64,000 nt of DNA from Pseudomonas eucalypticola (lineage in GTDB: Bacteria; Pseudomonadota; Gammaproteobacteria; Pseudomonadales; Pseudomonadaceae): NCBI RefSeq assembly GCF_013374995.1, contig NZ_CP056030.1, positions 4,124,501 through 4,188,500 on the forward strand, read 5' to 3'. Position 1 is the first letter of the stretch. Every line of letters begins with the position of its first letter. Below, piece by piece: positions 10,917 through 40,647 of this stretch. Made by a program: the position numbers and the translations under genes. Below the pieces are notes generated by a model that was given only the letters and a program-made list of their open reading frames with translations, was not told the DNA's origin and made no database searches.

Positions 10917-12131
10917 ATGCACCTGCGCCTTTGCGCCCTGACCCTGGCCTTGCTGCCCTGGCTGGCCCACGCCGATGACACGGTAGTGAGCCCCGCCACC
11001 CTGGCCTTGCACCAGCGCTTACTGGTGCTGGACAGCCACCTGGATACCCCCCTGGACCTGACCCGCCCCGGCTGGGACATCACCCAACGCCATGACTACC
11101 GCCAGGACGGTAGCCAGGTGGACGTGCCGCGCATGGTCGACGGCGGGCTGGACGGTGGCTTCTTCGCGGTGTACACGCCTCAGCAACCGCTGACCGATGA
11201 AGGCCGCGCGTACGCCAGCGCCTATGGGCTGGCGACGTTGACACGCATCCGCGACATGATCGACCGCAACCCGGACACCTTCGCCCTCGCGCTCACCCCC
11301 GAAGACGCCCGGCGCATCGCCGCTCAGGGCAAGCGCGTGGTGTTCATCAGCATGGAAAACGCCGAGCCGCTGGCCGCCGACCCGGCCCTGCTGAACACCT
11401 ACTACCGCCAAGGCCTGCGCATGCTCGGCCTGGTGCACTTTGCCGACAATGAACTGGCCGACTCGGCCACCGCCCTGCCGCACTGGAAAGGCCTGAGCCC
11501 TGAAGGTCGGCAACTGGTGACCGAGGCCAACCGCCTCGGCATTCTGCTGGACGTGTCCCATGCCAGCGACGCGGTGTTCGACCAGATACTGGCGCAGTCC
11601 ACCGCGCCCATCATTGCCTCGCACTCCAGCAGCCGCGCGGTCAACCCGCACCCGCGCAACCTCGATGACGGGCGCTTGCGCCAACTCGCCGCCAAAGGCG
11701 GCGTGGTGCAGGTCAATACCTACAGCGACTACCTGGTACCGCTCAAGCCCAACCCGGAGCGCAACAAGGCCCTGGCCGCCCTCGGCGCACGCTTCCACAA
11801 CCTGGCCGCGCTGAGCCCGGAGCAGAGCCATGCGCTATACCAGGATTACCACGCGATCGACACGAAGTACCCGCAACCCAAGGCGGACCTGGACGTGTTC
11901 ATGAAGCACCTGCTGCACATTCTGCAGGTGGTGGGGCCGGAGCATGTGGGCATTGGTGCCGACTGGGATGGCGGTGGTGGCGTGACGGGGCTGGAGGACG
12001 TCAGCCAGTTGCCGAAGATCAGCCAGCGCCTGCTGGACGCCGGCTATAGCGAGAAGGACCTGGCCAACATCTGGGGCGGCAACCTGCTGCGCGTGCTGCA
12101 GGCAGCGCAGGATGGGGCGGCCAAGGGGTGA
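10917..12131 (+). CDS. periplasmic membrane dipeptidase (peptidase M19)
   Basis: A 404-aa zinc dipeptidase of the renal dipeptidase family, cleaving dipeptides (in this family often including Cys-Gly and D-amino-acid forms). A short signal peptide (MHLRLCALTLALLPWLAHA) places it outside the cytoplasm. Metal-binding motifs are in order: the HxD of LDSHLDTP, the Glu of ISMENAEPL, the His residues of LDVSHASD and IIASHSSSRAV, and the Asp of IGADWDGGGG. Length and motif order are normal for the family. The gene follows TonB receptor 2 with one base between, which suggests that imported peptides or peptide conjugates are trimmed in the periplasm. Confidence 0.93.
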   Translation: MHLRLCALTLALLPWLAHADDTVVSPATLALHQRLLVLDSHLDTPLDLTRPGWDITQRHDYRQDGSQVDVPRMVDGGLDGGFFAVYTPQQPLTDEGRAYASAYGLATLTRIRDMIDRNPDTFALALTPEDARRIAAQGKRVVFISMENAEPLAADPALLNTYYRQGLRMLGLVHFADNELADSATALPHWKGLSPEGRQLVTEANRLGILLDVSHASDAVFDQILAQSTAPIIASHSSSRAVNPHPRNLDDGRLRQLAAKGGVVQVNTYSDYLVPLKPNPERNKALAALGARFHNLAALSPEQSHALYQDYHAIDTKYPQPKADLDVFMKHLLHILQVVGPEHVGIGADWDGGGGVTGLEDVSQLPKISQRLLDAGYSEKDLANIWGGNLLRVLQAAQDGAAKG

Positions 12132-12332: not shown

Positions 12333-12352
12333 TACCAGGAATGGATCTGTTC

Positions 12353-13929: not shown

Positions 13930-14063
13930 GGGCTGAACCTTGCTGTACCACCCAACCCGCGCGGCAACCACGACGCGGGACGGGTTTCTGCGCCCAGATG
14001 ACCCTACACAGGAAAAGGGAGCTTTTAAACGTTCCGTTGCACCTTTAGGGGAGTTACACCTTC

Positions 14064-16532
<2,469 letters not shown>

Positions 16533-16584
16533 CCCCACCGGGGGTGGTGGCCAAGCCGCCGCCCCCGCCGACGAGATTGCCCGC

Positions 16585-18708: not shown

Positions 18709-19667
18709 TGAGCAATCCCCCCCTGTTGCAGGTCCGCAACCTGCGTAAACACTACACGCGCCCAAGCCGTGGCTGGCTGGCGCCCCCCGTGCACCACCGG
18801 GTGGTCGACGGCCTGGACTTCGACCTGGGGGCCGGCGAGACCCTGGGCCTGGTGGGCGAGTCAGGATGTGGCAAATCCACCACCGGCAAACTGGTGATGC
18901 GCCTCACACCCGCCAATGGCGGCCAGGTACACCTGGACGGCGTCGATCTGCTGGGCCTGCCACTGAAACAGTTCAACGCCTGGCGCCCGCAGTTGCAGAT
19001 GGTGTTCCAGGACCCCGGCGGCTCGCTGAATCCGGTCTATACCGTAGCCCAGTCCCTGGAAGAACCACTCAAGGTGCATGCTCCGCACCTGAGCGCCAGC
19101 GATCGCCGCGACCGGGTGGCCGAGTTGCTGCAGCAGGTCGGCCTGGCCAGCAGCCACGGGCTACGCTACCCCCATGAGTTTTCCGGTGGCCAGCGCCAAC
19201 GCATCGCCATTGCCCGCGCCCTGGCCCTGCAACCGCGAGTGATCGTGGCCGATGAGCCCGTGTCGGCACTGGATGTGTCGGTACAGGCCCAGGTGCTCAA
19301 CCTCATGCAGGACCTCAAGGAACGCCACGGCCTGGCCTACCTGTTCATCGCCCACGACCTGGCGGTGGTACGGCACATGAGCCAGCGGGTCGCAGTGATG
19401 TACCGCGGCCGTATCGTCGAGAGCGCCCCGTGCGAGGCGTTGTACCGCACGCCCCTGCACCCCTATACCCGCTTGCTGCTGGAGTCGGTGCCCCGGCTGC
19501 GGGGAACGCCGACCACCGCCGTCGTGGCGATGCCCCAGGTACCGAGCGGGCCGGAGGCCTGCGCCTTTCACGACCGCTGCCCACGGCGCACCGCCCGCTG
19601 CGCCGAAGCCGCCCCGCTACTGCGCGAGGCAGCGCCGGCCCATAGCGTGGCGTGCCACCACCTGTGA
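18708..19667 (+). CDS. peptide ABC transporter ATP-binding protein (DppF-like)
   Basis: A 319-aa second ATPase of the same importer, with Walker A (GESGCGKST), the signature (FSGGQRQRIAIARAL), Walker B (VIVADEPVSALD) and the switch His (FIAHDLAVV). The C-terminal Cys cluster (ACAFHDRCPRRTARC) is present. It overlaps the DppD-like gene by one base (TGATG). Its TGA stop abuts the stop codon of the convergent gene with no base between. The pair would form the heterodimeric motor for the DppB/DppC-like permeases encoded on the other strand. Confidence 0.93.
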   Translation: MSNPPLLQVRNLRKHYTRPSRGWLAPPVHHRVVDGLDFDLGAGETLGLVGESGCGKSTTGKLVMRLTPANGGQVHLDGVDLLGLPLKQFNAWRPQLQMVFQDPGGSLNPVYTVAQSLEEPLKVHAPHLSASDRRDRVAELLQQVGLASSHGLRYPHEFSGGQRQRIAIARALALQPRVIVADEPVSALDVSVQAQVLNLMQDLKERHGLAYLFIAHDLAVVRHMSQRVAVMYRGRIVESAPCEALYRTPLHPYTRLLLESVPRLRGTPTTAVVAMPQVPSGPEACAFHDRCPRRTARCAEAAPLLREAAPAHSVACHHL

Positions 19668-21560: not shown

Positions 21561-21940
21561 CGGAACAGCTCGGCCACGGCCGGGTTGTGAAAGCGCTGGA
21601 TCTCCAGGGCATACCCAGCCGGGTCCTCAAAGAAGAAATGCTCACAGTACGTCCCTCGCAGGATCGGCGACAGCCCCGCCACGCCCTTGGCCTGCAAGCG
21701 CTGGTGCCAGCCTTCGACGTCCTCGTCCACCAGGGTCAGCAATACTGCGCTACGGGGTTGAGCCTTGAGGTGGCCACGCTGGCCGTCGACGATGCCGAAG
21801 TAACTGTGCTCGCCCAGGCGGTAGATGCGGGCCACGCCCTGGTCCAGCACCAGCTCCAGGCCCAGCACCTGCTCGTAGAACTGGCTGATGGGCGCAAGGT
21901 CGTCGTAGTAGAAAAAGGTGATCGGGTAACGCGATGCCAT
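21557..21940 (-). CDS. VOC-superfamily (glyoxalase/bleomycin resistance-like) protein
   Basis: A 127-aa small cytoplasmic protein with the two beta-alpha-beta-beta-beta modules of the vicinal oxygen chelate fold: ITFFYYDDLAPISQFYEQVLGLELV at the start and HFFFEDPAGYALEIQRF near the end. The ATG at 21940 is preferred to a TTG three codons upstream. The usual metal ligands (His/Glu set) are only partly apparent: the Glu in ALEIQRF is kept, while the first His position reads Phe. It lies between a binding-protein gene and the NTPase-FGE gene, overlapping the latter by 4 bases. It may act on or bind the imported compound; the substrate is unknown. Confidence 0.82.
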   Translation of the reverse strand: MASRYPITFFYYDDLAPISQFYEQVLGLELVLDQGVARIYRLGEHSYFGIVDGQRGHLKAQPRSAVLLTLVDEDVEGWHQRLQAKGVAGLSPILRGTYCEHFFFEDPAGYALEIQRFHNPAVAELFR

Positions 21941-21970
21941 GGTCGTCAACTCGTGTGCGGGAAGGGTTGG

Positions 21971-23377
21971 TCAGGGATGAATCAGCAGGTCGCCCTTGGC
22001 CCCCAGGGCCAGGCCAGCCAAGCCTGGGCGAACCCCGGCCACCACCACCGGGTGGAACAGGTACAGCCACGGCGGGTTGTGGTTCAGGCGGCGCAGGCAC
22101 TGGCCGTAGGCCTGGGCACGCAGCCGCGCATCCAGGCACTGGTTGGCCTTGAGGATCAGGGGTTCGAGGGCCGGATCGTGGTAGCCCTGCCACCAGCTGC
22201 CGCGCACCTGGCTGGAAATCTTGTCGTTGAGCACCCGGAAAGTGCTGTGGGGCGAGGAGTCGAAGATAGCCACGTCGCCCATCTGCTTGCGGCCGATCTG
22301 ACGGGCGTACTCGGGGCGGTCGGTCTGAACCTCGATGCGCCCGCGCAGGCCCACGGCCTGCAAGGCGTGCAGCACCTGTTCGGTGATCTGCAGGGCTTTT
22401 TCCGGCATGTATTCGGGGCTGCGCAACACGATCTCGGCGTTGCCGCCCACCTGGTCGAGCAAGGCCCGGGCCTTGGCCGGGTCATGGCTGATGGGCGCGA
22501 TGCCGGCCTCGACGAAGCCGTTGTGCCAGGGGCTGACCACCGTGGCGGCCGGCTGGCCCAGGCCCTGGAACAGATCATCGATGATCGCCTGCGCGTTGAC
22601 CGCGTGGTTTACCGCCAGCCTTGCCAGGGGGTGCTGGAACAAGCCGTCCGCGGCGTTCAGGTACTGCATCACCGACAGCGTATTGAGCTGGCGCAGCCAG
22701 GTCCAGGGCGCCCGGAAGTCCAAGGGCCGCTCACAGCGTTCCAGGTGGGTGGCGACGTCCACATCGCCTGTGGTCAGCCATTCATGGCGGGCCTGCGCGT
22801 CGGCGCAGGCGCGCAGTACCAGATACCGAGGCCCCTCGCCCGCGGCCACCCGTTGCAGGCATGCCTGCTGGCCGGCGGTGAACGCCGTGACCCGGTAAGG
22901 CCCGGTGCCCAGCACCGGTGCCTGCTGCTCATCGAAGCGGCAAATGAAGAACTCCGAGAATATCTCCAGAATATCCGCCACCGGCGTCTCGCACTGCATG
23001 CCCAGGGTGGTATCGCCCAAGGCGCTGAACCGAACCTCGCTCAGGTAGCGGGCATACGCCCATGGCATGCCGAAGGTATCGGTGGACTGCAGGATACCCT
23101 CGATGAAGGCCAGGATATGCTCGGCGCGGCAGGCCACGCCGTCGTGAAACCGCGCACCTGGGCGAATCTTGAAACGCCACTGACGGCCATCCGCCGATAC
23201 CTGCCAACTGCCCAGCAGGCCGGGCGCCACCTGCCCGTTCTGCCAGCGGCACAGTGGCTCCATCACCAGGTTCTTCAGGGTCAGGATGCTGGTGTCGTCG
23301 GTGACACGGTGGGGTGGGAAGAAATCGACCTTTTCCAGGGCAATGGTCAGGGTCTCGGGGGCGGAACGTGCACTCAT
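21971..23377 (-). CDS. family 5 solute-binding protein without a signal peptide
   Basis: A 468-aa protein of the DppA/OppA (SBP_bac_5) family: LEPLCRW-like start region, GQVAPGLLGSWQVSADGRQWRFKIRPGARFHDG, and later the TGPYRVTAF segment. The ATG at 23377 overlaps the upstream permease stop (ATGA). The protein begins MSARSAPETLTIALEK with no hydrophobic segment, and extending the frame upstream adds none. A binding protein kept in the cytoplasm cannot feed an importer in the normal way, so it may act as a ligand sensor, as in SgrR-type proteins, or be secreted by another route. The operon also encodes a normal lipoprotein binding protein at 25217. Confidence 0.85.
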   Translation of the reverse strand: MSARSAPETLTIALEKVDFFPPHRVTDDTSILTLKNLVMEPLCRWQNGQVAPGLLGSWQVSADGRQWRFKIRPGARFHDGVACRAEHILAFIEGILQSTDTFGMPWAYARYLSEVRFSALGDTTLGMQCETPVADILEIFSEFFICRFDEQQAPVLGTGPYRVTAFTAGQQACLQRVAAGEGPRYLVLRACADAQARHEWLTTGDVDVATHLERCERPLDFRAPWTWLRQLNTLSVMQYLNAADGLFQHPLARLAVNHAVNAQAIIDDLFQGLGQPAATVVSPWHNGFVEAGIAPISHDPAKARALLDQVGGNAEIVLRSPEYMPEKALQITEQVLHALQAVGLRGRIEVQTDRPEYARQIGRKQMGDVAIFDSSPHSTFRVLNDKISSQVRGSWWQGYHDPALEPLILKANQCLDARLRAQAYGQCLRRLNHNPPWLYLFHPVVVAGVRPGLAGLALGAKGDLLIHP

Positions 23378-24210
23378 CGTGAACTCCGTGTCTTGGGGTT
23401 CGACCAGCTGGCCAGGGCGTCGCCGATCAGGTTGAAAGCCAGCACCGTGGCCAGGATTGCCAGCCCCGGCGCCAGGGCGATCCACGGCGAGCGGTCGAGG
23501 TATTGCAGGTTGGCGGCCAGGTCCGCCCCCCATTCGGCCTGCGGTGCCTGGGCGCCCAGGCCCAGGTAGCCGAGGCTGGCGGTCTGCAGGATGGCGCTGC
23601 CCACGGCCAGGGATGCCTGCACCAACAGCGGCCCCAGGCCATTGCGCACCACGTAGTGCCAGAGAATGTGAGGGTGAGGCAGGCCCATGGAGATCGCCGC
23701 GTCCACATAGGGCCGCGCACTGATGCTCAGCGCCTGGCCGCGCGCCACCCGGGCGAAACCGGGGGCCAGGCTGATGGCCACGGCCAGCATGGCATTGACC
23801 AGGCTGGGGCCCAGGCAGGCGGCCAGGGCAATGGCCAGCACCAGCGAAGGGAACGACAGCAGCGCATCCACCAGGCGCATCATCAGCGCGTCAACCCAGC
23901 CACCGCAGTAGCCGGCCAGGGTGCCGAACGTGGCGCCCACGGTGAACGCCAGGGCCACCACCGCGCAGCCGACCGCCAGGGTATAGCGCCCGCCGTACAG
24001 CAAGCGGCTGAGCACATCGCGGCCAAACAGGTCGGTGCCCAGCCAGTGCCGGGCGTCGGGGGCGACGAAGCGCTCGCTGACCGCCAGGGTATTGGGCCCA
24101 TAGGCCAGCCACAGCGGCACCACGGCGATGCCGACGAGAATGGCCAGCAGCATCAGCGCCCCGACGACCGCCAGGCGGTTGGTGCGGGCGAAGTAAACCA
24201 GTTCGTGCAT
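23374..24210 (-). CDS. peptide ABC transporter permease (DppC-like)
   Basis: A 278-aa inner-membrane permease. The N-terminal cytoplasmic segment and TM1 are followed by HWLGTDLFGRDVLSRLLYGGR, the DppC/OppC hallmark. About six membrane segments and the EAA-type loop (YVDAAISMGLPHPHILWHYVVRN) are present. It overlaps the DppB gene by one base and the next binding-protein gene by 4 bases. Its ATPases are encoded in the convergent operon. Confidence 0.94.
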   Translation of the reverse strand: MHELVYFARTNRLAVVGALMLLAILVGIAVVPLWLAYGPNTLAVSERFVAPDARHWLGTDLFGRDVLSRLLYGGRYTLAVGCAVVALAFTVGATFGTLAGYCGGWVDALMMRLVDALLSFPSLVLAIALAACLGPSLVNAMLAVAISLAPGFARVARGQALSISARPYVDAAISMGLPHPHILWHYVVRNGLGPLLVQASLAVGSAILQTASLGYLGLGAQAPQAEWGADLAANLQYLDRSPWIALAPGLAILATVLAFNLIGDALASWSNPKTRSSR

Positions 24211-25220
24211 CAGTGCCCCCTGTGGCGCAAGCGCGGGTCCGCCACGCCGTAAAGCAGGTCGACCAGCAACGACACCAGCATGTACAGCAACGCGAACACC
24301 AGGGTGGTGCCCTGCAGCACCGGGTAGTCGCGGTTATGAATGGCATCGAGCATGAAGCGCCCTACCCCCGGCCAGGCGAACACGGTCTCGGTAAGGATGG
24401 CGCCGCCGAGCATGTCGGCGAAATGCAGGCCTATGACGGTAATGGCCGGCAGCAAGGCGTTGCGCAGGGCATGCACGCCCACCACCCGCCATTCGCCCAG
24501 GCCCTTGGCCCGCGCGGTACGCACGAAAGGTTCGCCCAGTGCTTCGAGCAGGCTGTTGCGCACATAGCGCGCCACCACCGCGGCCAGGAACGAGCCCAGC
24601 ACCAGGGTGGGCATCAGCAGGTGCAGGCAGGCGTCCCAGGCTGCGGCAGGCTGGCCAGCCAGAAGGAAGTCGAGCGTGGCCAGGCCGGTGACCGGCTCGG
24701 TGATGTAATAAGGGCTGGTGCGCCCTGAAATGGGCAGCCAGCCCAAGTGAATGCTGAACAGTGTCTGCAGCATCAGCGCCAGCACGAAGGCTGGCATCGA
24801 CACGCCCGCCAACGACAGCACGCGCAAGGCCTGGTCCAGCAGGCTGTCGACCCGCATGGCGGCCACCATCCCCACGGGGATCCCCACCAGTAGCGCCAGC
24901 AGCGTGGCCAGCACGGTCAACTCCAGGGTAGCCGGTAGACGCCGGGCGACCTCGGTCAGCACGGGCTGCCCGGTCTTCAACGACATGCCCAGGTCACCGT
25001 GCGCCAGGCGCCCCAGGTAGGCGCCGAATTGCACGTACAGCGGCTGGTCCAGCTGCAACTGGCTGCGCAGTGCGCTGATCTGCTGCTCGCTGGCATCGGG
25101 CCCCAGCAGCGCCACCGCGGGGTCGCCAGGCAGGTTGCGGGCCAGGGTGAAGATCATCAGCAACACCAGCACCAGCACTGGCACGGCGGTCAACAGGCGA
25201 CGGCCGAGAAAACTGTTCAC
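24210..25220 (-). CDS. peptide ABC transporter permease (DppB-like)
   Basis: A 336-aa inner-membrane permease with the DppB/OppB N-terminus (FLGRRLLTAVPVLVLVLLMI, then ARNLPGDPAVALLG). It has six membrane segments and an EAA loop near ALGEPFVRTARAKGLGEWRVVGVHALRNALLP. The start codon is GTG at 25220, overlapping the upstream stop (GTGA). With the DppC-like protein it forms the channel of the peptide importer. Confidence 0.94.
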   Translation of the reverse strand: MNSFLGRRLLTAVPVLVLVLLMIFTLARNLPGDPAVALLGPDASEQQISALRSQLQLDQPLYVQFGAYLGRLAHGDLGMSLKTGQPVLTEVARRLPATLELTVLATLLALLVGIPVGMVAAMRVDSLLDQALRVLSLAGVSMPAFVLALMLQTLFSIHLGWLPISGRTSPYYITEPVTGLATLDFLLAGQPAAAWDACLHLLMPTLVLGSFLAAVVARYVRNSLLEALGEPFVRTARAKGLGEWRVVGVHALRNALLPAITVIGLHFADMLGGAILTETVFAWPGVGRFMLDAIHNRDYPVLQGTTLVFALLYMLVSLLVDLLYGVADPRLRHRGH

Positions 25221-26764
25221 GGTGCGGGGCCCTCCTTGTACACCGACCAGTACTCAACCAGCGGCGGTGCGCTGTTGAGCGCCAGGCCCTGCACCTGGGG
25301 GCGCTTGAACAGGATGAGGTTGTTGCTGAACAGGTACACTGCCGGCACCCGCGCCATCAGCTGCTGCTGCAGCTGGCTGTACAGTTGCTTGCGCAGGCTG
25401 GCGTCGGCAACGCTGCGGGCCTGCACGATCAGGCCATCCAGCGCCGGGTCGGGCGGCATGCGAAATGTCATGGCCGAGCGCGCCAGGCTCGACATATAGC
25501 CCTGGGTAATATGGGCATCGGGGTCGTTGTACCAGGGCTGGCGACCGTCCAGCGCGATATCGAAATGACCAGCCACGTGACGGGCGCGCAACAGCGAGAA
25601 TTCGCTCTGCTCGATGCGCACGTCAATGCCCACTTCAGCGAAGTTGGCCTGCAGGAAGGTGGCCACGCTGGTCCACATCGCGCCCTGGAAACCATACAGG
25701 GTCAACTTCAGCCTGCCCGGCGGGTAACCCGCTTCGGCCAGCAGTTGCCGGGCCTTGGCCGGGTCATGGTGAAAGGCCGTGGCCTGCATGGCTGGGTCGA
25801 ACGCCCAACTGGCCGTGGGCAGCGGCCCGTACACACGCTCCACGACACCACCGAGAATGCCGTTGACCAGGCCGTCGTAGTCCACCGCCCAGGCCATGGC
25901 CTGGCGCACCCGCAGGTCGTGCACGGGGCTGTCAGGGTTGTCGTTGTTGAAGTCCAGTTGGCGGATGATCTGGCTGCGCGCCTGCACGACCTGCACTTTG
26001 TGGTCTTCGGCGAAGGCCTGGATGTCATCCGTGGGAATGGTAGCGAGTTGGCTGATGGGTGGGCTGACATCGACCCCGCCGTAGCGCAATTCCAGGCGCC
26101 GGGTGGAGGCATCGGGAATGACTCGGTAGACGAGCCGCTGCAAGCGCGCAGGGCCGCGGAAATAGTCGTCGTTACGCTCCAGGATCAACTCGTTGTCCGG
26201 GCTGTAGCGGCGCAGCCGGAAGGCCCCGGTACCGCTGGGCTGCTGGCCGGGGCGCAGGCCGGCGACCTTGACGACCGCCGCCTGGGGCTGGGCCAGCAGC
26301 GCCGCGAAGGTGGGCATGGGTTCAGCCAGGTCAATGCGCAGGGCCAGCGGGCCGGTCACCTCGATACGCTCGATGGCCCTGAAGCTGGCGGCCAGGAACG
26401 GGTTAAGCCGCGCGGCCCGGTTCAGGGATTGTTGCACCGCCTGTGCGTCCAGTGCCGTGCCGTCCTGAAACCGCACGCCGGGGCGCAGGGTCAGGCTCAG
26501 TTGACGGCCATCGGCGCTCAGCGCCCACTGGCTGGCCAGCCGGCCTTCCAAATGATCGAACGCCGGCGGCGCCCACGCCAGCAGAGTATCGAACAGGTTG
26601 AGGATGACTTCACTGCCCACCGGTTCCGCCTTGTTGGTGGCCGGATCCAGCCCCACCGGGTCGGAGGGCACGGCTATGACCAGAGTCTGCAGTTGCGCCT
26701 TATCGTCCGGGGCCTGGCACGAGGCCAGACATAGCAAGGCAAGAAATAACGCTAGACGGCGCAA
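25217..26764 (-). CDS. peptide-type lipoprotein solute-binding protein (family 5)
   Basis: A 515-aa binding protein with a lipoprotein signal (MRRLALFLALLCLASC, lipobox LASC), so it should be anchored in the periplasm by its lipidated Cys. The body shows VIAVPSDPVGLDPATNKAEPV, ALSADGRQLSLTLRPGVRFQDGT and GTGAFRLRRYSPD, typical of the DppA/OppA/NikA family. The start is a TTG at 26764 with GAGG 8 bases upstream. It is the first gene of the minus operon. The operator-like site at 26785-26806 is 20 bases before this codon, matching the site before the GntR gene. Confidence 0.92.
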   Translation of the reverse strand: MRRLALFLALLCLASCQAPDDKAQLQTLVIAVPSDPVGLDPATNKAEPVGSEVILNLFDTLLAWAPPAFDHLEGRLASQWALSADGRQLSLTLRPGVRFQDGTALDAQAVQQSLNRAARLNPFLAASFRAIERIEVTGPLALRIDLAEPMPTFAALLAQPQAAVVKVAGLRPGQQPSGTGAFRLRRYSPDNELILERNDDYFRGPARLQRLVYRVIPDASTRRLELRYGGVDVSPPISQLATIPTDDIQAFAEDHKVQVVQARSQIIRQLDFNNDNPDSPVHDLRVRQAMAWAVDYDGLVNGILGGVVERVYGPLPTASWAFDPAMQATAFHHDPAKARQLLAEAGYPPGRLKLTLYGFQGAMWTSVATFLQANFAEVGIDVRIEQSEFSLLRARHVAGHFDIALDGRQPWYNDPDAHITQGYMSSLARSAMTFRMPPDPALDGLIVQARSVADASLRKQLYSQLQQQLMARVPAVYLFSNNLILFKRPQVQGLALNSAPPLVEYWSVYKEGPAP

Positions 26765-26873: not shown

Positions 26874-26968
26874 GGTGCATGGCTTGATTGTTCTGGCGCC
26901 CTTGAGACCGAGCGCCGCCCGCGCAGCGCTTCGCGAGCAAGGGCGCCAGAAGAGTCAAGCCATGCACC
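26874..26968. repeat. 31-bp imperfect inverted repeat at the edge of the 364-bp array
   Basis: The left arm 26874-26904 (GGTGCATGGCTTGATTG...) and right arm 26938-26968 pair at 29 of 31 positions around a GC-rich core. The right arm is the start of the first 364-bp unit, so the array begins with an inverted copy of its own end. Confidence 0.75.
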
Positions 26969-28388
26969 TATCAGCCCCAACCCGGGTGTAAGACAGGCCC
27001 ATCGGAGGTTCTTCGATATTCCTCGCTGGGGATTGCATCAGGGCGTCCATGCGCTAGGCGATGGTGTTGTGGCGTTCTTGAGATCGAGCGCCGCCCGCGC
27101 GGCGCTTCCCGGCCAAGGCCGGTCCCACATCTGTTTCGGGCCAATTTTGCCTGTGAGATCACCGCGACCGCCTTATTGGCACCCACACAGATCTGCGGTG
27201 AACCTACAAAGCGGACCAAGTGATGCCACAGACATAACTGGCCCGAAACAGATGTGGGACCGGGTTTACCCGGGAAGCGCCGCGCGGGCGGCGCTCGGTC
27301 TCAAGGGCGCTAGAAGAATCAAGCCATGCACCTATCAGCCCCGACCCGGGTGGAAGACAGGCCCATCGGAGGTTCTTCGATATTCCTCGCTGGGGATTGC
27401 ATCAGGGCGTCCATGCGCCAGGCGATGGTGTTGTGGGGTTCTTGAGATCGAGCGCCGCCCGCGCGGCGCTTCCCGGCCAAGGCCGGTCCCACATCTGTTT
27501 CGGGCCAATTTTGCCTGTGAGATCACCGCGACCGCCTTGTTGGCACCCACACAGATCTGCAGTGAACCAACAAAGCGGACCAGGTGATCTCAAAGGCATA
27601 ACTGGCCCGAAACAGATGTGGGACCGGGTTTACCCGGGAAGCGCCGCGCGGGCGGCGCTCGGTCTCAAGGGCGCTAGAAGAATCAAGCCATGCACCTATC
27701 AGCCCCGACCCGGGTGGAAGACAGGCCCATCGGAGGTTCTTCGATATTCCTCGCTGGGGATTGCATCAGGGCGTCCATGCGACAGGCGATGGTGTTGTGG
27801 CGCTCTTGAGATCGAGCGCCGCCCGCGCGGCGCTTCCCGGCCAAGGCCGGTCCCACATCTGTTTCGGGCCAATTTTGCCTGTGAGATCACCGCGACCGCC
27901 TTGTTGGCACCCACACAGATCTGCAGTGAACCAACAAAGCGGACCAGGTGATCTCAAAGGCATAACTGGCCCGAAACAGATGTGGGACCGGGTTTACCCG
28001 GGAAGCGCCGCGCGGGCGGCGCTCGGTCTCAAGGGCGCTAGAAGAATCAAGCCATGCACCTATCAGCCCCGACCCGGGTGGAAGACAGGCCCATCGGAGG
28101 TTCTTCGATATTCCTCGCTGGGGATTGCATCAGGGCGTCCATGCGCCAGGCGATGGTGTTGTGGGGTTCTTGAGATCGAGCGCCGTCCGCACGGCGCTTC
28201 CCGGCCAAGGCCGGTCCCACATCTGTTTCGGGCCAATTTTGCCTGTGAGATCACCGCGACCGCCTTATTGGCACTCACACAGATCTGCAGTGAACCTACA
28301 AAGCGGACCAAGTGATGCCACAGACATAACTGGCCCGAAACAGATGTGGGACCGGGTTTACCCGGGAAGCGCCGCGCGGGCGGCGCTA
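26961..28388. repeat. four-unit 364-bp tandem array built from long inverted repeats
   Basis: The word CATGCACC recurs at 26961, 27325, 27689 and 28053, exactly 364 bases apart, and the units are nearly identical; the last one diverges from about 28389. Each unit holds two 67-base arms that are near-perfect reverse complements (first unit 27077-27143 and 27239-27305) around a 95-base spacer. Each arm contains shorter GC palindromes (GAGCGCCGCCCGCGCGGCGC and CCGGCCAAGGCCGG). No protein, promoter or transposase is credible inside; the open frames seen there are repeat artefacts. 26807-26873 upstream is A+T-rich and without a recognisable feature. Confidence 0.92.
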
Positions 28389-28430: not shown

Positions 28431-29837
28431 CTACACCGAAGCAGCCCGCAGCGCCCCCGCCCGCAGCAACCATCGTTGCCCCACCCACGACAGCAGCATG
28501 GCCACCGCCAGGGCAACCATCACCGCCTGGTAGCCCTGCAACAACGCCCCCGGCGCCGCCACCTGGGCGGGGCCTGTGTAGTGGTGCAACAGGCTGACGC
28601 CCAACGCCAGGCCCAGGCCACCCCCTACGTTGTGCAAGGTCATCAGCGACCCGACCGCCACTGAACCGAACTGCTCGGGCACGGAACTCACCCCCAGCAC
28701 GGTCGAAGGTCCCAGCAGGCACGCCCAGCCCAGGCCCATCACGGCAAACGCCGCCAGCACATACGCCAGTGATGTCTCGGCGCTGAAGGCGATCTGCAAC
28801 AAGGCCGATACGGCGAACAGCAGCAGCCCAGTCTGGATCAGCACCGCCGGGCCCTTGCGGTCTACCAGGCGGCCGACCCACGGCGACAGCAGCGCCACGC
28901 CCAGCGTGGTGGGCAATAGCAGCAGGCCGCTGGCCTGGGTGTCGGCACCGCGCACATGGGTGAGGTACAACGGCATGACGAAAAACGCCACGCAGTAAAA
29001 CACCGCCAAGGTGAAGCTGGCAGCCACCGCCGCCACAAAGCGCCGGTTGACGAACAGGTGCAGGTTGATCACCGGCGAAGCCACACGCAATTCCACCCAC
29101 ACGAACAGCCCCAGCACCACCACCGCCACGGCCAGCAGCCCAAGGCTCAGGGGCGACCCCCAGCCCCAGGTGCCGCCCTGCACGATCAGCAGCACCAGGC
29201 TGGGCAAGCCAATCAGCAGCAAGGCCGCACCGGCCCAGTCCAGCCGGGCGTCCTGCTCATCGGCACGGGACTCGTCGACGTTGAGGGCGATCACCACCAA
29301 GCTGAGCAGCACGAACGGCACGTTGATGAGGAAAATCCACGGCCAGCCGAATGCCTGGGTCAGCACGCCGCCCAGCACCGGCCCCACGGCCAGGCCCACG
29401 CCGTTGAAACCGAACAGCACGCCAAACGCCTTGCCCTGTTCCTGTGGGGCGAAGGCCTGGGCGACGATGGCCCCCGATGCCGTGTACAGCACCGCGCATG
29501 CCAGGCCCTGGGCCACGCGCGCACCGATCAGCAGCCACGGCCCCGACGCCAGTCCCGCCACCAGCGAAGCCAGCCCGAACACCACCAGCCCCAGGGATAG
29601 CACGCGCTTGCGGCCATGCAGGTCGGCCAGGCGGCCCACCAGTACCATGAAGCTGGACATGGCCAGCAGGAAGGCATTGATCACCCATTGCAAGGTATCG
29701 ACCGACACGTCCAAATGCGCTTGCAGCGCCGGCAACGCGGTGTTGACGATGGTAAAGTCCACGCACCCCAGGAAGCTGGCGATGCTCACACCCGCCAGCG
29801 CCCACCACTTGCGGTGCCCGTTTGTTGAATGACTCAT
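28431..29837 (-). CDS. MFS drug/metabolite exporter, DHA2 (14-TM) family
   Basis: A 468-aa inner-membrane proton antiporter of the EmrB/QacA type. TM1 carries the DHA2 motif DFTIVNTALP, and the loop 2-3 motif is GRLADLHGRKRV. GFNGVGLAVGPVLGGVL (motif C, antiporter signature) follows, then WPWIFLINVP. The ATG at 29837 is preceded by GGAG at 6 bases. It is the last gene of the operon with the cyclodipeptide synthase, 46 bases downstream of it, and so probably exports the cyclodipeptide product. It could also give resistance to that product. Confidence 0.9.
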   Translation of the reverse strand: MSHSTNGHRKWWALAGVSIASFLGCVDFTIVNTALPALQAHLDVSVDTLQWVINAFLLAMSSFMVLVGRLADLHGRKRVLSLGLVVFGLASLVAGLASGPWLLIGARVAQGLACAVLYTASGAIVAQAFAPQEQGKAFGVLFGFNGVGLAVGPVLGGVLTQAFGWPWIFLINVPFVLLSLVVIALNVDESRADEQDARLDWAGAALLLIGLPSLVLLIVQGGTWGWGSPLSLGLLAVAVVVLGLFVWVELRVASPVINLHLFVNRRFVAAVAASFTLAVFYCVAFFVMPLYLTHVRGADTQASGLLLLPTTLGVALLSPWVGRLVDRKGPAVLIQTGLLLFAVSALLQIAFSAETSLAYVLAAFAVMGLGWACLLGPSTVLGVSSVPEQFGSVAVGSLMTLHNVGGGLGLALGVSLLHHYTGPAQVAAPGALLQGYQAVMVALAVAMLLSWVGQRWLLRAGALRAASV

Positions 29838-29883
29838 GGTTAACTCCAGACAAGGCCGGGGCGACGTGCCGCCTCAGCGCTAT

Positions 29884-30621
29884 TCAAATGGCAAACGCGG
29901 CAGTGGCCCAGATCGGCCGGCTCACTGCGGGCACTGGCTGGTCAACCACGGCAGCGCGTTTCTTGAATTTCAACGACAGCCAGTGGCCGTGCGCCGGGTG
30001 GTGCGGTTCGACGAACAACTGCCGCGTGGCCGCCATGGCGCGGGTCATGGGCTGGGGGTAGACGACGAAGTCGATGCCCTGGGACGCCCACAGCGGCATG
30101 ATGATCGGGCATTCCTCGATCAGGTAGTTCAGGCAGCGAAACCGTGCCTCTTCAAGGTCAGCCTCGGGGTCGCGCTTGTGCAGGCGGTCGAGGAACAGGC
30201 CAATGGTGCCGTTGACCTCGGCACGGTAATCGCGGTTGTTCTCGTACTCGAACTGCACCCGGTCCAGCAGCGGCCGGTAACCGGGGTCGAGCAAGCATTC
30301 CTCCCAGCGCAGAATCCTGGTCACCGTGGCCAGGCGATTGATCGCCCCCTGGTTGCGTGCCAGCCACTGCTCGCCCGAGGCGGCGCTGACCTTGTACACC
30401 TCCTCGTAGCTGTAATTGCTGAGGTTATGGCGCTGCAGGATATCGGCCACGGCAATGGTGCAGGAGGCAAAGCCCTGGCGGTTGACCAGGTCGATGGTGG
30501 CTTCGAACTTGCCACCCTCGTGGTAGTCCTGGCCGACGCTGATCAGCAACAGGGCGTGCTTGCCCCGGTAGTCATGGGTCAGGTCCGTCTCGAAGGCCGC
30601 TTTATAAGTAGCGCTGCTCAT
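29884..30621 (-). CDS. tRNA-dependent cyclodipeptide synthase (XYP-type)
   Basis: A 245-aa protein that I assign to the cyclodipeptide synthases, which take two aminoacyl-tRNAs and form a diketopiperazine by a ping-pong mechanism. The candidate nucleophile Ser28 is in HALLLISVGQDY, Gln31 is where NYH-type enzymes have Asn40, and Tyr166 and Glu170 in NYLIEECP match the catalytic Tyr178/Glu182 of AlbC. Tyr188-Pro189 in FVVYPQPM matches the YP of the XYP subfamily. RILRWEECLLDP (102-112) fits the basic tRNA-binding helix region. Spacing Ser-Tyr is 138 residues against 141 in AlbC. GGAG 7 bases before the ATG lies inside the end of the oxygenase gene, three bases after its stop. Which amino acids are used cannot be read from the sequence. 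Confidence 0.85.
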   Translation of the reverse strand: MSSATYKAAFETDLTHDYRGKHALLLISVGQDYHEGGKFEATIDLVNRQGFASCTIAVADILQRHNLSNYSYEEVYKVSAASGEQWLARNQGAINRLATVTRILRWEECLLDPGYRPLLDRVQFEYENNRDYRAEVNGTIGLFLDRLHKRDPEADLEEARFRCLNYLIEECPIIMPLWASQGIDFVVYPQPMTRAMAATRQLFVEPHHPAHGHWLSLKFKKRAAVVDQPVPAVSRPIWATAAFAI

Positions 30622-30624
30622 GGT

Positions 30625-31400
30625 CTAGCTCCAGAAGATCAAGGGGGATTGCTCGCCGAAATAACCGATGAAGCTGGACAGGGTTATGCGCGGCGACGTG
30701 TGCACGGGGCGTACAGCGTGGATGAAGCGTGGGTTGATGATGATCAGGTCGCCGTCCTCGGGCGGGTGGTGAAATCCGCGGGCCGCAGGCGGTCGCGGTC
30801 GATGCCGTAATGGCGGTCACTCTTGAGGGCCAGGTATTCGGGCGCCGTGGGGCGGATGTCCCATACCTCCAGCTCGCCGCCCTGCTGGGGTACCTGCAGG
30901 TAGATGTTCACCGACAATTGCGCCTGCAGGTTCACCTGCAAGTGCGCGGGCAGGTTCCACTCCAGCTTGTCGATGTGCGGGCACAGGTCGATGCCCGGTT
31001 CCTGGTAGCGACACACGCCGGTGAAGCATTTCTGGCCGTCCACATCCAGCAGGTGCGCGCCCCGCGGCCAGGCTTCGTCCAGGCGCAGGCGAAACTCGTC
31101 GATAGGCGACACATAGGGTTTGAACGCGTTGCGCACGCGCTGGATATTGGCCCGCGCAGCCTCGTGGTAGGCCTGGCGTACCTCGTCGGTCTTGACCTCG
31201 GCATAGGCGATACCCAACCGGGTGAACTCCCGGGCATGGCCCAGGGCTCCGCGCTCCGGATGGTCGAACAGCTGCGCGCGGGCCGCCTCCAGGCTCGGCT
31301 GGCTGACGAAGCCAGGAATGCGAATGCCATAGACGCGGTGCGCCAGCAGGTCCTGGATCAGTTGCGGTGCAAGCGCATCGGCGCTGATGGTAGCGAGCAT
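30625..31400 (-). pseudogene. 2-oxoglutarate/Fe(II) oxygenase gene, interrupted by a one-base frameshift
   Basis: From the ATG at 31400 (strong AAGGAGG site) the frame runs 218 codons and stops at 30744. It contains the Fe-binding HxD (His142, Asp144 in CPHIDKLEW), then SVNIYLQVP and GGELEVWD. After about codon 213 the family continues in the next frame: EDGDLIIINPRFIHAVRP with the distal His, then SPRITLSSF with the 2-oxoglutarate Arg ten residues later, and a stop at 30625. Restored length is about 258 aa. One missing C in a C-run (near 30760-30766) explains the shift. As read, the enzyme would lack the third iron ligand. A sequencing error, a recent mutation or phase variation are all possible. 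In the operon it should modify the cyclodipeptide made by the next gene. Confidence 0.83.
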
Positions 31401-31443
31401 TTACCTTCCTCCTTGGCAGTCGAACCAAGCCCCAATGCCGGGC

Positions 31444-32370
31444 TCAGTGGTCAAAACGGTTGTCGAAATACGCCGGGGCGTCGACGCGCCGGTTGATGAT
31501 GTGTTCGTCCAGGTACAGGTCCGCTGCGGCCTGCAACTGGCTGACGACCGTCGCGTCGATGGCGATGCGGTGCGGTTTGGATTCCAACGTGGACAGCCGG
31601 TGAAACTCGGCCGGCAACCCCGTGTGCGCCGATTGCTGGCCGGCGTAGGCGTCGACATTGCGGTTGGCCCACTGGTAGGCGCGGTCGATGCGCGCCAGCA
31701 GGTCGGCGATCAGCGCCTGCTTGCTGGCGATGGCCTTGTCGTTGGCGACGATCAGCACGTTGCCGGCGAACAGCTTCTCGCCGCTGGCGAGCACGCGGGC
31801 ATGGTCCTGCAACTGCACCATGCTGGTGTAGGGGTCCCAGGTGGCCCAGGCGTCGGCGCGACCATTGTCCAGCAGCAGCCGCGACTCCCCTGGGGGCAGG
31901 AAAATGAACTGCGCATCGCGGCTGTGCAGCCCGGCCTGACGCATGGCCGCCAGCGCCAGGAAATGGCCGATGGAACCCCGGGTGGTGACGATCCGCTTAC
32001 CGGCCAGGTCGGCGACCTGATGCAACGGCGAATCCTGCTTGACCACCACCGCGACCATGGTCGGGGTCACCTGCAGCTTGATCACCGCCACGGTGTGAAT
32101 CGGCGCCTTGGCCGCCACCGCGAAAATGAACGGCGCATCCCCCAACGCCCCTACGTCAGCGGCGTCGGCGCCCAGCGCCTCGGCGATCGGCGGCGCGGCC
32201 GGGAATGAGGAAAACTCGATGCGGTACGGCAGGTCGTCGAGTTCACCCGCTGCCTGTAGCAAGATCTTCAGCGAGTCTTTCTGGCTGCACACCCGCAGTA
32301 CGTCCTGGCCCTGGGCCGACCCGGCCAGCAACAGCCCGGTCAGCAGCACCCACTGCCAGACGCGGTTCAA
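31444..32370 (-). CDS. SsuA/TauA-like periplasmic solute-binding protein
   Basis: A 308-aa binding protein with a signal peptide (WQWVLLTGLLLAGSAQG). It has the pattern of the aliphatic sulfonate/nitrate/taurine group: ADVGALGDAPFIFAVAAKAP, PLHQVADLAGKRIVTTRGS, and RADAWATWDPYTS. The start is a TTG that overlaps the TonB receptor stop (TTGA), so the two are translationally coupled. No permease or ATPase gene is adjacent, so it must work with a transporter elsewhere or serve another role. Its ligand may be an organosulfur compound, but it could also bind the operon's own metabolite. Confidence 0.88.
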   Translation of the reverse strand: MNRVWQWVLLTGLLLAGSAQGQDVLRVCSQKDSLKILLQAAGELDDLPYRIEFSSFPAAPPIAEALGADAADVGALGDAPFIFAVAAKAPIHTVAVIKLQVTPTMVAVVVKQDSPLHQVADLAGKRIVTTRGSIGHFLALAAMRQAGLHSRDAQFIFLPPGESRLLLDNGRADAWATWDPYTSMVQLQDHARVLASGEKLFAGNVLIVANDKAIASKQALIADLLARIDRAYQWANRNVDAYAGQQSAHTGLPAEFHRLSTLESKPHRIAIDATVVSQLQAAADLYLDEHIINRRVDAPAYFDNRFDH

Positions 32371-34832
32371 AACGCCACGCTCACGCGGCCGTAGTAGAAA
32401 CCACCGCCGAAGCCGTAAGGAGAAAACATGCCGTACTCATAGGTACCGGCCCAGGTGCGAATGCCCTTCTTGTCGGGGTACACGTCGAACAGGTTGTTGG
32501 CCCCCAACGCCACGGTGACGTGATCGGTAAGGTCATAGGCCACGTCCAGGTCGGTGATCCACTTGGCGCTGTAGGTACGGTCGTTCTCCGGCAAGTTAGA
32601 GCCTTCGGTGTACTGCCCGTAGCGAGTCAGGGTCAAGTTGACGTTCCAGGCCGCCACCCGATAACGGGTGTTGGCGATCCACTTGTCCTTGGGGGTGGCG
32701 CGCGTAAGGTCAATCTGTTGCTGGCGGTCGAACAGCACGTAGCCGGCGCCCAGGCTGGACAGTTGCGCAGGGTTGTCCGCCAGGCTGCGGATGCTGTTCT
32801 TGTTGTGGTTGTAGGCTAGGCTGAATTTAGCCTCGCCGTAGGCTTCCAGCGGCTGGGTGTACTCGGCTACCACGTCGACGCCCTGGGTGCGGGTGTCGGC
32901 GGCATTGGCGTAGTACTGCCCGGCCAGGTTGGCGGGCAAGCCATTGGCGACCAGGATGCTGGACACGGCGGAGCCGCTGAGTACGCCGGTCTGCAGGATG
33001 CGGTCATCGATGTCGATCAGGTACCAGTCGGCGGTCATGCGCAGCCGCGGCATAGGCTCGGCGGTCAGGCCCAGACTGTAGCTCATGGAGGTTTCCGGCT
33101 TCAGTGCCTTGGCGCCCAGGGCGATGGCTTCCGCCGAGTCGGGGCGCATCTGCTTGGTGCGGACCACGCTGGTGGCACCGCCCGCACCGAACTGGGTGAT
33201 GCTGCTGGTGGTGGAAAACTCTTCCTGGGCCAGGGACGGCGCGCGAAAGCCCTTGCTGACGGCAGCGCGCACGGCATAACCGGGGAGGAATTCGTAGCGG
33301 GTAGTGAACTTGCCACTCGTGGTTTCACCGATGCCCTGGTTGTAGCTTTCATGGCGCACCGCGGTCCCCACGTACCAGTTCGGGGTCAGGTTCAAGCCCA
33401 GGTCCAGGTAGCCTGCCGTGCTGTGTCGGTCGGCGCGCCCGGCGTCCTCGGGGCTGGTGCCAGCCACGGAAAACAACCCCGGGTCGGGCACACGGCCGGC
33501 GAAGGGGCCCGTGGGTATCACGTAGCTGCCCTGGTTATAGGAGCTGGGCTCGCCCTCCTCCAGGGTGAATTGCTCCCAGCGGTATTCGACGCCGACCGAG
33601 GTCTGCAGCGGGCTGCTCCAGCCGATGTCCAGGGCGCGGGTGAAATCCAGGTTGTTGGTCCACTGGTCGAAGATCTCGTTGCCCAGGTGAAAGCGCTGCT
33701 GGCTGAAGTCGGGCCCGTTGGAGATGTTCAGGTTGTTGTCGGTATACAACTGCGCGCGGTCGCGACCGTAGCTGCTGGACAGGTCCCAGTCCCAGCCGCT
33801 GACCAACCCCTTGAGCCCGGCAGTGGCCTGGTAGTCCACTTCCTCGATTTCCCGGCGGGCCTGGCCGCCATTGCCGTACGGCGCGCCCTCCACGCCGGCC
33901 AGGCTGGTGATGTCGGTGGGCTTGCGGTGGCCCAGGTCCTTGTTGCTGTTGCGGTAGCTGAGGGTGGAGAACGAGTACAGCTTGAGAGCGTCCTGCAACG
34001 GCAGCTCCAGGTTGTAGGCGGTGCTGGCCGTGCGGTCGCGGCCCAGACCGTATTCGTTGCCCCAGCCATGACGGTTGCTTTCGCGCGGGTCCGGGGTGCC
34101 GTCGGCCTGGTTGAAATACAGCTGGCCCGTGGCCCCTGCATCGCGGATATAGGGCTCCTGCACCTTGCCATCCAGCGACAGGTTGAAGAAGCCGCCGTCG
34201 CCCAGTGGGCTGCCAATATTGGCGGCCTGGTGGCCGGTGGTGCCATCGCCATCGTAGTACTGGCCGAGGGACGTGTCGGAACTGGCGCCCTGTGCATCGC
34301 GCTTGAGAATGATGTTGATCACCCCGGCGATGGCGTCGGAGCCGTATTGCGCCGCAGCACCATCGCGCAGCACTTCGATACGCTCGACCGCGGCCGTGGG
34401 GATGAGATCCAGGTCCACGGGGGCCGAAGCGTTGCCGACGCGGGCGTTGTTGTTGATCATCGCCGTGTTGTGGCGGCGCTTGCCGTTGACCAGGATCAGC
34501 ACCTGGTCACCTCCCAGGCCGCGCATGCTGATGCCGCGAACCAGAAAACCGGTACCGCCGCCGTTGAAGGTGGGCACGTTCATGGAGGGAATCAGGCGCG
34601 CCAGGATTTCCTTCAAGCCACTCTTGCCGGTGGCCGTCAGTTGTTCGCTGGTATAGACATCGATGGGGACCGGGCTGTCGGTCAGGGTGCGCTGCTGGGT
34701 ACCGCGCACCCCGGTGACCACCACGGTATCAAGGGCATCCTCTGCCTTGATCGGGACGCTGAGGGCGCTGGCCGCCAGCAGCAGGCCGGCGGCGGGCAAA
34801 GGACGAAACAACACACGGGCAGTTTGGCTCAT
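32367..34832 (-). CDS. TonB-dependent outer-membrane receptor (4)
   Basis: The ATG at 34832 gives 821 aa with a signal peptide (LLLAASALSVPIKAED). A TTG three codons upstream is less likely. VVVTGVRG is the TonB-box-like segment. The plug has RGLGGDQVLILVNGKRRH, IEVLRDGAAAQYGSDAIAGV and NIILKRD; the C-terminus ends FYYGRVSVAF. It is a relative of receptors 1 and 3. It is the first gene of the operon that encodes the SsuA-like protein, the oxygenase, the cyclodipeptide synthase and the exporter. It may import the external substrate, or take back a modified cyclodipeptide with its metal. The A+T-rich upstream region (34842-34990) should hold the operon promoter, though I cannot fix its elements. 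Confidence 0.93.
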   Translation of the reverse strand: MSQTARVLFRPLPAAGLLLAASALSVPIKAEDALDTVVVTGVRGTQQRTLTDSPVPIDVYTSEQLTATGKSGLKEILARLIPSMNVPTFNGGGTGFLVRGISMRGLGGDQVLILVNGKRRHNTAMINNNARVGNASAPVDLDLIPTAAVERIEVLRDGAAAQYGSDAIAGVINIILKRDAQGASSDTSLGQYYDGDGTTGHQAANIGSPLGDGGFFNLSLDGKVQEPYIRDAGATGQLYFNQADGTPDPRESNRHGWGNEYGLGRDRTASTAYNLELPLQDALKLYSFSTLSYRNSNKDLGHRKPTDITSLAGVEGAPYGNGGQARREIEEVDYQATAGLKGLVSGWDWDLSSSYGRDRAQLYTDNNLNISNGPDFSQQRFHLGNEIFDQWTNNLDFTRALDIGWSSPLQTSVGVEYRWEQFTLEEGEPSSYNQGSYVIPTGPFAGRVPDPGLFSVAGTSPEDAGRADRHSTAGYLDLGLNLTPNWYVGTAVRHESYNQGIGETTSGKFTTRYEFLPGYAVRAAVSKGFRAPSLAQEEFSTTSSITQFGAGGATSVVRTKQMRPDSAEAIALGAKALKPETSMSYSLGLTAEPMPRLRMTADWYLIDIDDRILQTGVLSGSAVSSILVANGLPANLAGQYYANAADTRTQGVDVVAEYTQPLEAYGEAKFSLAYNHNKNSIRSLADNPAQLSSLGAGYVLFDRQQQIDLTRATPKDKWIANTRYRVAAWNVNLTLTRYGQYTEGSNLPENDRTYSAKWITDLDVAYDLTDHVTVALGANNLFDVYPDKKGIRTWAGTYEYGMFSPYGFGGGFYYGRVSVAF

Positions 34833-34993
34833 CAGTGGCAATCCGTTTGATCATTCTTTTTATCCTTGACGCCCTGAGGCGCCGACTGTGATCCCGTGGT
34901 TGGGTGGAATGATCTTAGGATCCAACTCTTAATGAGAGAAATACATAAAGCTCATAAGCTAATATTAATTTTCAGATACGTTGTTTTACTTGA

Positions 34994-40380: not shown

Positions 40381-40647
40381 AAGCGCCTTGGTGCCCGCCG
40401 ACCTCTGTAGCTGACACCGCATGCGCCGCCGACGCGGCCTTGCGGCCAACGCTGAAGGCCGGCGCGAGGTCTGTCAGGTGCACCGCTTTCGGTGCGCGTC
40501 GAGCCGCTTCATATGTTCGCCAGCGCACAGACAGCCAAGCCCTTCCCCACCCACACTCAACGCTGAAGAGCGGCGCCCGGCCCTGGGCCAGTGACGCCCC
40601 CTCCCACCCGGCGCCAGGGCCTGCCCGCGCCCCAGGCCGAAAAGTGT

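Follow-up and report, generated by a model that had tools for sequence, protein, structure and literature searches.

Why would the genes for making and exporting a cyclodipeptide share an operon with a TonB-dependent receptor and a periplasmic binding protein, and what would these two bring into the cell? The question is raised by a locus of Pseudomonas eucalypticola (contig NZ_CP056030.1, assembly GCF_013374995.1; genome of 6.4 Mb), which lies in a stretch of 64,000 nt that we analyzed as a whole and call the window; all window coordinates refer to this stretch. Five genes on the minus strand, from 34841 down to 28431, encode in this order a TonB-dependent receptor, an SsuA-like binding protein, an Fe(II)/2-oxoglutarate (2OG) oxygenase, a cyclodipeptide synthase (CDPS) and a transporter of the major facilitator superfamily (MFS). 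They are packed as an operon, with a 4-bp overlap between the receptor and SsuA-like genes and gaps of 43 bp ahead of the oxygenase gene and 46 bp ahead of the MFS gene, which bears out the compact five-gene operon of a preliminary description of this DNA. We propose tentatively, with a confidence just short of even, that a trio of genes that make, modify and export a compound was recruited here into a locus of the organosulfur-uptake type, and that its product acts outside the cell.

The synthase and its predicted product

The CDPS gene (29884..30621, minus strand) encodes 245 amino acids (aa), and judged by its residues and its match to a solved enzyme the protein is a real CDPS of the XYP subfamily. 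Ser28, Tyr166, Glu170, Tyr188 and Pro189 are invariant at conserved spacing in a 31-row alignment, in which Gln31 is not; the preliminary description had named all of these XYP-type residues (Ser28, Gln31, Tyr166, Glu170 and Tyr188-Pro189) correctly. The profile check that it called for had a mixed outcome: both curated cut-offs were narrowly missed (PF16715, 25.8 versus 27; TIGR04539, 42.4 versus 45), while the solved XYP enzyme of Nocardia brasiliensis (5mlq) was matched over residues 3-225 with an E-value of 1.9e-64 and 104 identities in 224 aligned residues (~46%). The match to 5ocd had an E-value of 4.2e-42, and 73 proteins among 493 candidates matched the window enzyme at E <= 0.001. In a survey of 398 Pseudomonas genomes we found a CDPS in 21, three of them of a type I (97-100% identical to the window enzyme) and 18 of a type II (37-51%; in genome G229 the gene is in two pieces).

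To the extent that the available sections of PMC5816076 describe them, the positions of the substrate pockets P1 and P2 were inferred on these proteins from their spacing to the catalytic residues. As a check on this mapping, seven Legionella loci reproduced exactly the motif pair printed for the Gly/Glu enzyme; the printed logo for cyclo(Ala-Glu) enzymes itself could not be viewed. The window enzyme carries LLAAWIIV and TLFRQMT at P1 and P2, and the N. brasiliensis loci carry VLAAWIIV and TRFRQIS. The product of the N. brasiliensis CDPS is given as cyclo(Ala-Glu) in the accessible part of PMC13062777, and the second position of P1 is Leu in enzymes that make cyclo(Ala-Glu) and Ala in those that make cyclo(Leu-Glu) according to the accessible text of PMC5816076, whose Table 3 placed 55 sequences in the cyclo(Ala-Glu) group in 2017. 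This position is Leu in the window enzyme, whose predicted product is thus cyclo(L-Ala-L-Glu), formed from tRNA-borne Ala and Glu. For the type II enzymes cyclo(Leu-Glu) is predicted, because Ala occupies the position in 17 of 17 rows (locus L090 was too short and was left out). The Legionella loci with the Gly/Glu pocket motif (L059, L062-L067) have a different 2OG family next to the CDPS gene in six of seven cases and two further conserved genes beside it in all seven.

The oxygenase gene is broken as sequenced

By descent the oxygenase gene belongs to the Fe(II)/2OG family, but it is broken as sequenced. Its first reading frame (30744..31400, minus strand), a 218-aa open reading frame (ORF) with the HxD pair, passes PF22814 with a score of 28 against a cut-off of 27; the distal iron-binding His and the 2OG-binding Arg sit in another frame (30624..30777, minus strand), so that the window ORF does not hold the complete 2-His-1-Asp triad and the Arg in one frame. 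The gene is a single frame of 258 aa in Pseudomonas sp. T1-3-2, Pseudomonas sp. M47T1 and P. ovata F51, the closest named relatives by CDPS, and no second copy was found in the P. eucalypticola genome at E 0.001. The preliminary description, which took the oxygenase to be intact, had not noticed this break. It may be a real mutation or a sequencing error; barring the latter, the window strain would make only the unoxidised ring, because its oxygenase gene is broken. The frameshift call rests on the reading frames: the oxygenase and CDPS starts lie 779 bases apart in the window and 780 in T1-3-2 and M47T1, a spacing that was dropped as a measure because P. ovata, with an intact frame, also has 779. 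Oxygenase frames appear broken in loci L038 and L053 as well.

All 56 aligned oxygenase rows keep the HxD pair; 55 have the distal His and 54 the Arg (Cys in L038). WelO5-type halogenases lack the carboxylate of the iron site (HxG or HxA), and the structure 5iqu is listed as a G166D variant. The window oxygenase thus looks like a WelO5 fold with a hydroxylase-type iron site and is not expected to halogenate, since the HxD pair is kept; on the same 56 rows it is not classed as a halogenase. It differs from the carrier-independent halogenase WelO5 in this pair and in having a CDPS as its partner.

An oxygenase-synthase-exporter trio is widely conserved

The last gene of the operon (28431..29837, minus strand, 468 aa) encodes a predicted exporter, as had been proposed; it matches PF07690 and belongs to the DHA2 family by the TIGR00711 cut-off (233.3 versus 230.2). 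To see how far this setting extends, 58 CDPS loci in species genomes were surveyed. Oxygenase, CDPS and MFS genes occur in the same order and strand in 38, with carriers that include Streptomyces, Actinomadura, Nocardia, Gordonia, Mycolicibacterium, Burkholderia, Paraburkholderia and Xenorhabdus. Five Photorhabdus loci have another 2OG family (PF03171/PF14226) in the oxygenase position together with an MFS gene, and in six Legionella loci a 2OG gene of that type follows the CDPS gene. One or the other 2OG family adjoins the CDPS gene in 49 of 58 loci and neither in nine, and an MFS gene is present in 44. These counts support the prediction that an XYP CDPS, a single Fe(II)/2OG oxygenase and a DHA2 MFS protein form one biosynthetic and export unit. 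The five-gene order proposed earlier holds in a narrower range: the three type I genomes have all five genes together, as does P. ovata F51, but wide conservation extends only to the trio.

Transport genes near the trio vary in these loci. An Opp/Dpp-type permease gene on the same strand within 8 kb was found in 14 of 58 loci (eight actinobacteria, five Photorhabdus and T1-3-2), a TonB receptor of the searched types within 6 kb in four, and FecCD near the CDPS gene in three. The MFS ORF of Gordonia malaquae overlaps by 4 bases with the next ORF, which encodes the binding protein of an importer. In L047 (14373-18354), and also in L045 and L048, a second permease and an ATPase gene lie between the FecCD and Peripla_BP_2 genes downstream of the trio.

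Receptor and binding protein

The first two genes of the operon are those expected from the preliminary description. The receptor (32367..34841, minus strand, 824 aa) matches PF00593 and PF07715. Its scores miss the cut-offs of all 22 NCBIfam families that it matches, siderophore, heme and B12 receptors included; its best curated siderophore-receptor score is 95.7 against a cut-off of 493 (NF010048). The SsuA-family periplasmic protein (31444..32370, minus strand, 308 aa) passes the TIGR01728 cut-off (186.1 versus 163.5), and among solved structures its best match (E 9.5e-35) is 2x26, a periplasmic aliphatic sulphonates-binding protein; sulfonates are the ligands for which the SsuA family is known.

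Across the 21 CDPS-bearing Pseudomonas genomes, a full receptor gene stands beside the trio in 19 and an SsuA-like gene in 20. The oxygenase, CDPS and MFS genes are present in all 18 type II stretches, the SsuA-like gene in 17 (in two pieces in one) and the receptor gene in 17, with only about half of it in L080. An NtaA/DmoA-type monooxygenase gene follows the MFS gene in 17 (L084 is without it), and the stretches also hold genes for an amine oxidase (17 of 18), RidA (17 of 18) and an M19 dipeptidase (16 of 18); the M19 gene adjoins the MFS gene in M47T1. L096, where the contig ends, lacks the receptor, RidA, amine oxidase and M19 genes; its genome has the receptor and amine oxidase genes on another contig. 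Broken members of the group are L090 (CDPS in two pieces), L080 (receptor about half lost and no SsuA-like gene) and L089 (SsuA-like gene split).

The trio in a putative organosulfur-type locus

Upstream sequence was fetched for seven of the 18 type II stretches. All seven have a block of genes for a four-rhodanese protein, CDO_I, LysR, SsuC-like, SsuB-like and SfnB-like proteins, a hydroxyacid dehydrogenase, a class II aldolase and a second SsuA-like protein. In the type II locus, curated cut-offs were passed only by the monooxygenase (TIGR03860), the aldolase (NF004855) and Pfam domains. The sulfur hint of the preliminary description, which had come from the SsuA-like protein, thus gains partial support from the monooxygenase and from the upstream block of type II; no such block stands beside the window operon.

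We also fetched 11 cousin loci from the groups of lower-identity receptors and amine oxidases, and found no oxygenase or CDPS match in them at E 1e-6. Four that were picked by receptor (L114-L117) have the receptor, SsuA-like and monooxygenase genes in order, two of them with ~2 kb between the first two, and in type II the trio is placed between the SsuA-like and monooxygenase genes. Because these cousins keep the three genes in order without the trio, the trio looks to have been recruited into an older organosulfur-type locus, whose uptake genes would then have formed a lineage of their own.

The two Pseudomonas types have median identities of 48% for the oxygenase and 43% for the CDPS, and of 75% for the receptor and 72% for the MFS protein, and in the oxygenase tree type I joins Burkholderia and Xenorhabdus with a support of 98. 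We do not claim a cassette swap between the types, since the approximately unbiased (AU) test does not reject a single Pseudomonas clade (p 0.068). In P. ovata F51 (L023), a luciferase-like monooxygenase gene (PF00296, 4284-5591) and the receptor gene diverge, and the MFS gene is followed by one for a binding protein that is TauA-like by eye (12375-13358).

A conserved element upstream of the receptor gene

A 28-bp AT-rich element, AATATTAGCTTATGAGCTTTATGTATTT, lies upstream of the receptor gene (34939..34966, minus strand) and is a candidate regulatory site by its conservation in relatives: it is identical in T1-3-2 and P. ovata F51 and matches at 26 of 28 positions in M47T1. A 20-21/28 relative precedes the amine oxidase gene in all type II stretches except L096, which is without that gene (17 of 18); given the kinship of these loci, we count the 17 as one observation. 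In five shuffled versions of the window the numbers of matches at 18/28 were 0, 0, 1, 0 and 0, although AT-rich promoters raise the number of chance matches. The element may belong to the uptake side, because cousin loci without a CDPS (L112, L113) also reach 18-21/28; in L112 a 19/28 match lies ~200 bp upstream of its receptor gene. The 14-base core has one exact and six one-mismatch matches in the genome, against none for the reversed control. A regulon was not adopted, as the six one-mismatch sites lie near genes that show by eye no evident sulfur link, with the exception of L123, where a protein related to the hydroxyacid dehydrogenase is encoded; the element was not recognised as part of any known regulon.

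Scans for Fur, IdeR, actinobacterial Zur and sigma-54 sites used consensus sequences. At low power, no Fur-like site of at least 14/19 was seen in 19 of the 20 Pseudomonas stretches L079-L098, in L021-L023 or in window positions 20001-45000; L089 has a 14/19 match at 11364, and L081 a Zur-like 13/15 match. This negative is weak, because only two Fur-like sites of at least 16/19 occur in the whole genome. The Nocardia loci have no IdeR-like site at 15/19; the other matches of these scans lie in Photorhabdus, Xenorhabdus, Legionella and metagenome-bin loci, with an IdeR-like match in L072. No sigma-54 site was found in the 20 stretches.

Relation to known systems

The nearest characterised relative is the N. 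brasiliensis Nbra-CDPS (PDB 5mlq/9i5m), which like the window enzyme is of the XYP type, has the same pocket pattern and has genes for a WelO5-fold oxygenase and an MFS protein on its flanks. That locus differs in having no TonB receptor or SsuA-like match beside the CDPS gene and an importer of FecCD type ~3.7 kb downstream. The theme of CDPS, 2OG oxygenase and MFS protein is shared with bicyclomycin, as the consulted part of PMC5930311 describes it. In the bicyclomycin cluster the starting compound is cyclo(Ile-Leu), and a P450 stands alongside five 2OG enzymes, whereas the window operon has one oxygenase and a cyclo(Ala-Glu)-type pocket; with one 2OG gene and no P450, it is not a bicyclomycin cluster. 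The preliminary description had rightly set the two apart by the single oxygenase and the TonB receptor. Pulcherriminic acid offers another likeness, as a CDPS-derived product that binds iron (in the portions available of PMC12342472 and PMC2922099). Its route, by the same portion of PMC2922099, uses a P450 to N-oxidise cyclo(Leu-Leu), whereas the genome of the window has no P450 (PF00067) match; other N-oxidising enzymes were not sought.

Gene neighbourhoods of this kind are partly in print: a paper of 2010 (PMC2922099) noted a 2OG gene adjoining CDPS in P. fluorescens and Burkholderia sp. 383, and one of 2014 (PMC4159871) the proximity of CDPS genes to those for TonB receptors and ABC transporters. 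The accessible sections of these two papers name no sulfur setting, spread of the trio or product for those loci. A limited literature search found nothing on the end product of a cyclo(Ala-Glu)-type cluster, on a tie between CDPS and sulfonate in Pseudomonas or on a sulfur setting of such a cluster.

Other genes of the window

Between the MFS gene and an Opp-type binding protein gene lie four tandem copies of a 364-bp unit (26938-28387, 97% matches). A second nutrient-type group (12311-26764) has GntR, rhodanese, TonB receptor and class I/II aminotransferase genes and an Opp/Dpp-type set of two Opp-type ATPases, two SBP_bac_5 proteins and two Dpp-type permeases. The Opp/Dpp genes at 26764-23374 adjoin the operon in the window and in T1-3-2; they were left out of the system because they are absent beside the operon in the M47T1 and P. 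ovata stretches. An M19 membrane dipeptidase gene (10917..12131, plus strand, PF01244) lies 16 kb from the operon and is a possible accessory. Two further window receptors, at 1886 and 14064, share 34-37% identity with that of the operon. Further observations are an FGE-sulfatase domain (PF03781) fused to an NTPase-like region (19668-21560) and a 2879-aa protein (40591-49230) with two GH94 supersandwich stretches, a GH94 catalytic domain and a glucoamylase domain, which we take to be of the cyclic glucan synthase type. No RNA family in the window reached its gathering score.

Discussion

In the reading that we put forward, the synthase would join Ala-tRNA and Glu-tRNA into cyclo(L-Ala-L-Glu), the oxygenase would hydroxylate the ring or the Glu side chain, with no halogenation as the HxD pair is kept, and the DHA2 pump would export the result. 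In Pseudomonas this trio would have been recruited to a place just after the genes for a TonB receptor and an SsuA-family protein, both of which, by descent, would serve the import of a ligand of sulfur type and not of iron. The compound would most likely be made when the uptake locus is on, presumably under sulfur regulation, and would act outside the cell in competition or signalling; the cargo of the receptor would be either an organosulfur nutrient or a product-related compound.

Several findings weigh against this proposal. The names SsuC, SsuB, SfnB and second SsuA are best matches below cut-off (SfnB, 110 versus 431), so that the sulfur label of the type II upstream block is one by resemblance, and our confidence is lowered because several sulfur names are of this kind. 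The window and T1-3-2 (L105) have no SsuC/SsuB-SfnB-cysteine-dioxygenase block beside the operon, and the nearest sulfur-type neighbours in the window (rhodanese, aminotransferase) are 11-16 kb away. Two cousins picked by amine oxidase (L107, L108) have adjoining SsuA-like and monooxygenase genes with the receptor elsewhere, and loss of the trio from the cousin loci may be an alternative to recruitment. The uptake genes also track the synthase closely: receptors of at least 73% identity (E 1e-230 or better, a threshold that drops short pieces) occur in 20 of the 398 genomes, all 20 with a CDPS, and amine oxidases of at least 74% identity in 18, which are precisely the type II carriers. Among CDPS genomes only G025, with about half of the gene, is missing from the receptor list. 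Receptors at 55-58% identity occur in 16 other genomes, which have no CDPS, and amine oxidases at 50-60% in 82 others, type I genomes among them. This restriction of the closest receptors and amine oxidases to CDPS genomes makes the uptake side look tailored to the product beyond mere co-regulation; re-uptake of the product would account for the pairing of receptor and CDPS no less well than co-regulation does.

Such re-uptake without metal, in which exported oxidised cyclo(Ala-Glu) would return through the receptor and the SsuA-like protein as a recycled signal or carrier and be dismantled by the dipeptidase, amine oxidase, RidA, aldolase and flavin monooxygenase, strikes us as doubtful. It draws on this co-occurrence, on the M19 and RidA genes of the type II stretches and on the Opp/Dpp-type importers paired with the synthase in 13 loci of actinobacteria and Photorhabdus, which also hint at re-uptake. 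However, the 11 cousin loci, which have no CDPS, bring together proteins related to the receptor, the binding protein, the amine oxidase, RidA and the monooxygenase, so the ancestral uptake substrate need not be this product; the SsuA family is one of sulfonate type, and the dismantling genes do not adjoin the window operon. A metallophore, which in the preliminary description was an attractive but unproven reading, would arise if hydroxylation of the Glu side chain gave an alpha-hydroxycarboxylate or similar chelator whose metal came back through the receptor. The TonB receptor of the operon, the TonB receptor gene upstream of the oxygenase gene in Burkholderia sp. D-99 and the FecCD/Peripla_BP_2 importer ~3.6-3.7 kb downstream of the CDPS gene in N. 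brasiliensis and N. vulneris (the three loci with FecCD) speak for it. We nevertheless regard it as unlikely, given the receptor scores, the SsuA type of the binding protein, the absence of a P450 for oxidation of the ring nitrogens, the low-power Fur and IdeR scans, a single bidentate site that would probably bind weakly, and the four cousins that keep the receptor, SsuA-like and monooxygenase genes without a CDPS.

The broken oxygenase could also mean that the pathway is decaying in the window strain and makes nothing useful, which we consider distinctly unlikely. The gene in two frames without a second copy would fit, as would the other broken members (the CDPS of G229 in two pieces; G025 with about half a receptor gene and no SsuA-like gene). 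Yet 24 of 29 window genes queried have a counterpart in T1-3-2, and the 23 other than the oxygenase align over their full or nearly full length (SBP3b from residue 25, u7705 from residue 7 and one gene clipped by the end of the stretch), with a CDPS that is 99% identical; the frame defect may, moreover, be a sequencing error. Highly improbable in our view is a sulfur-scavenging carrier, an exported, oxidised and reactive Glu-diketopiperazine that would capture thiols or other sulfur, be retaken as an adduct by the receptor and the SsuA-family protein and then be dismantled by M19, amine oxidase/RidA, flavin monooxygenase, cysteine-dioxygenase-like and rhodanese enzymes. If true, it would be a sulfur counterpart of a siderophore.

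The conserved trio provides a defined gene set for expression. Its pairing in Pseudomonas with one TonB-receptor lineage and one amine-oxidase lineage makes the question of the ligand directly testable, and raises a possible role of diketopiperazines in sulfur acquisition.

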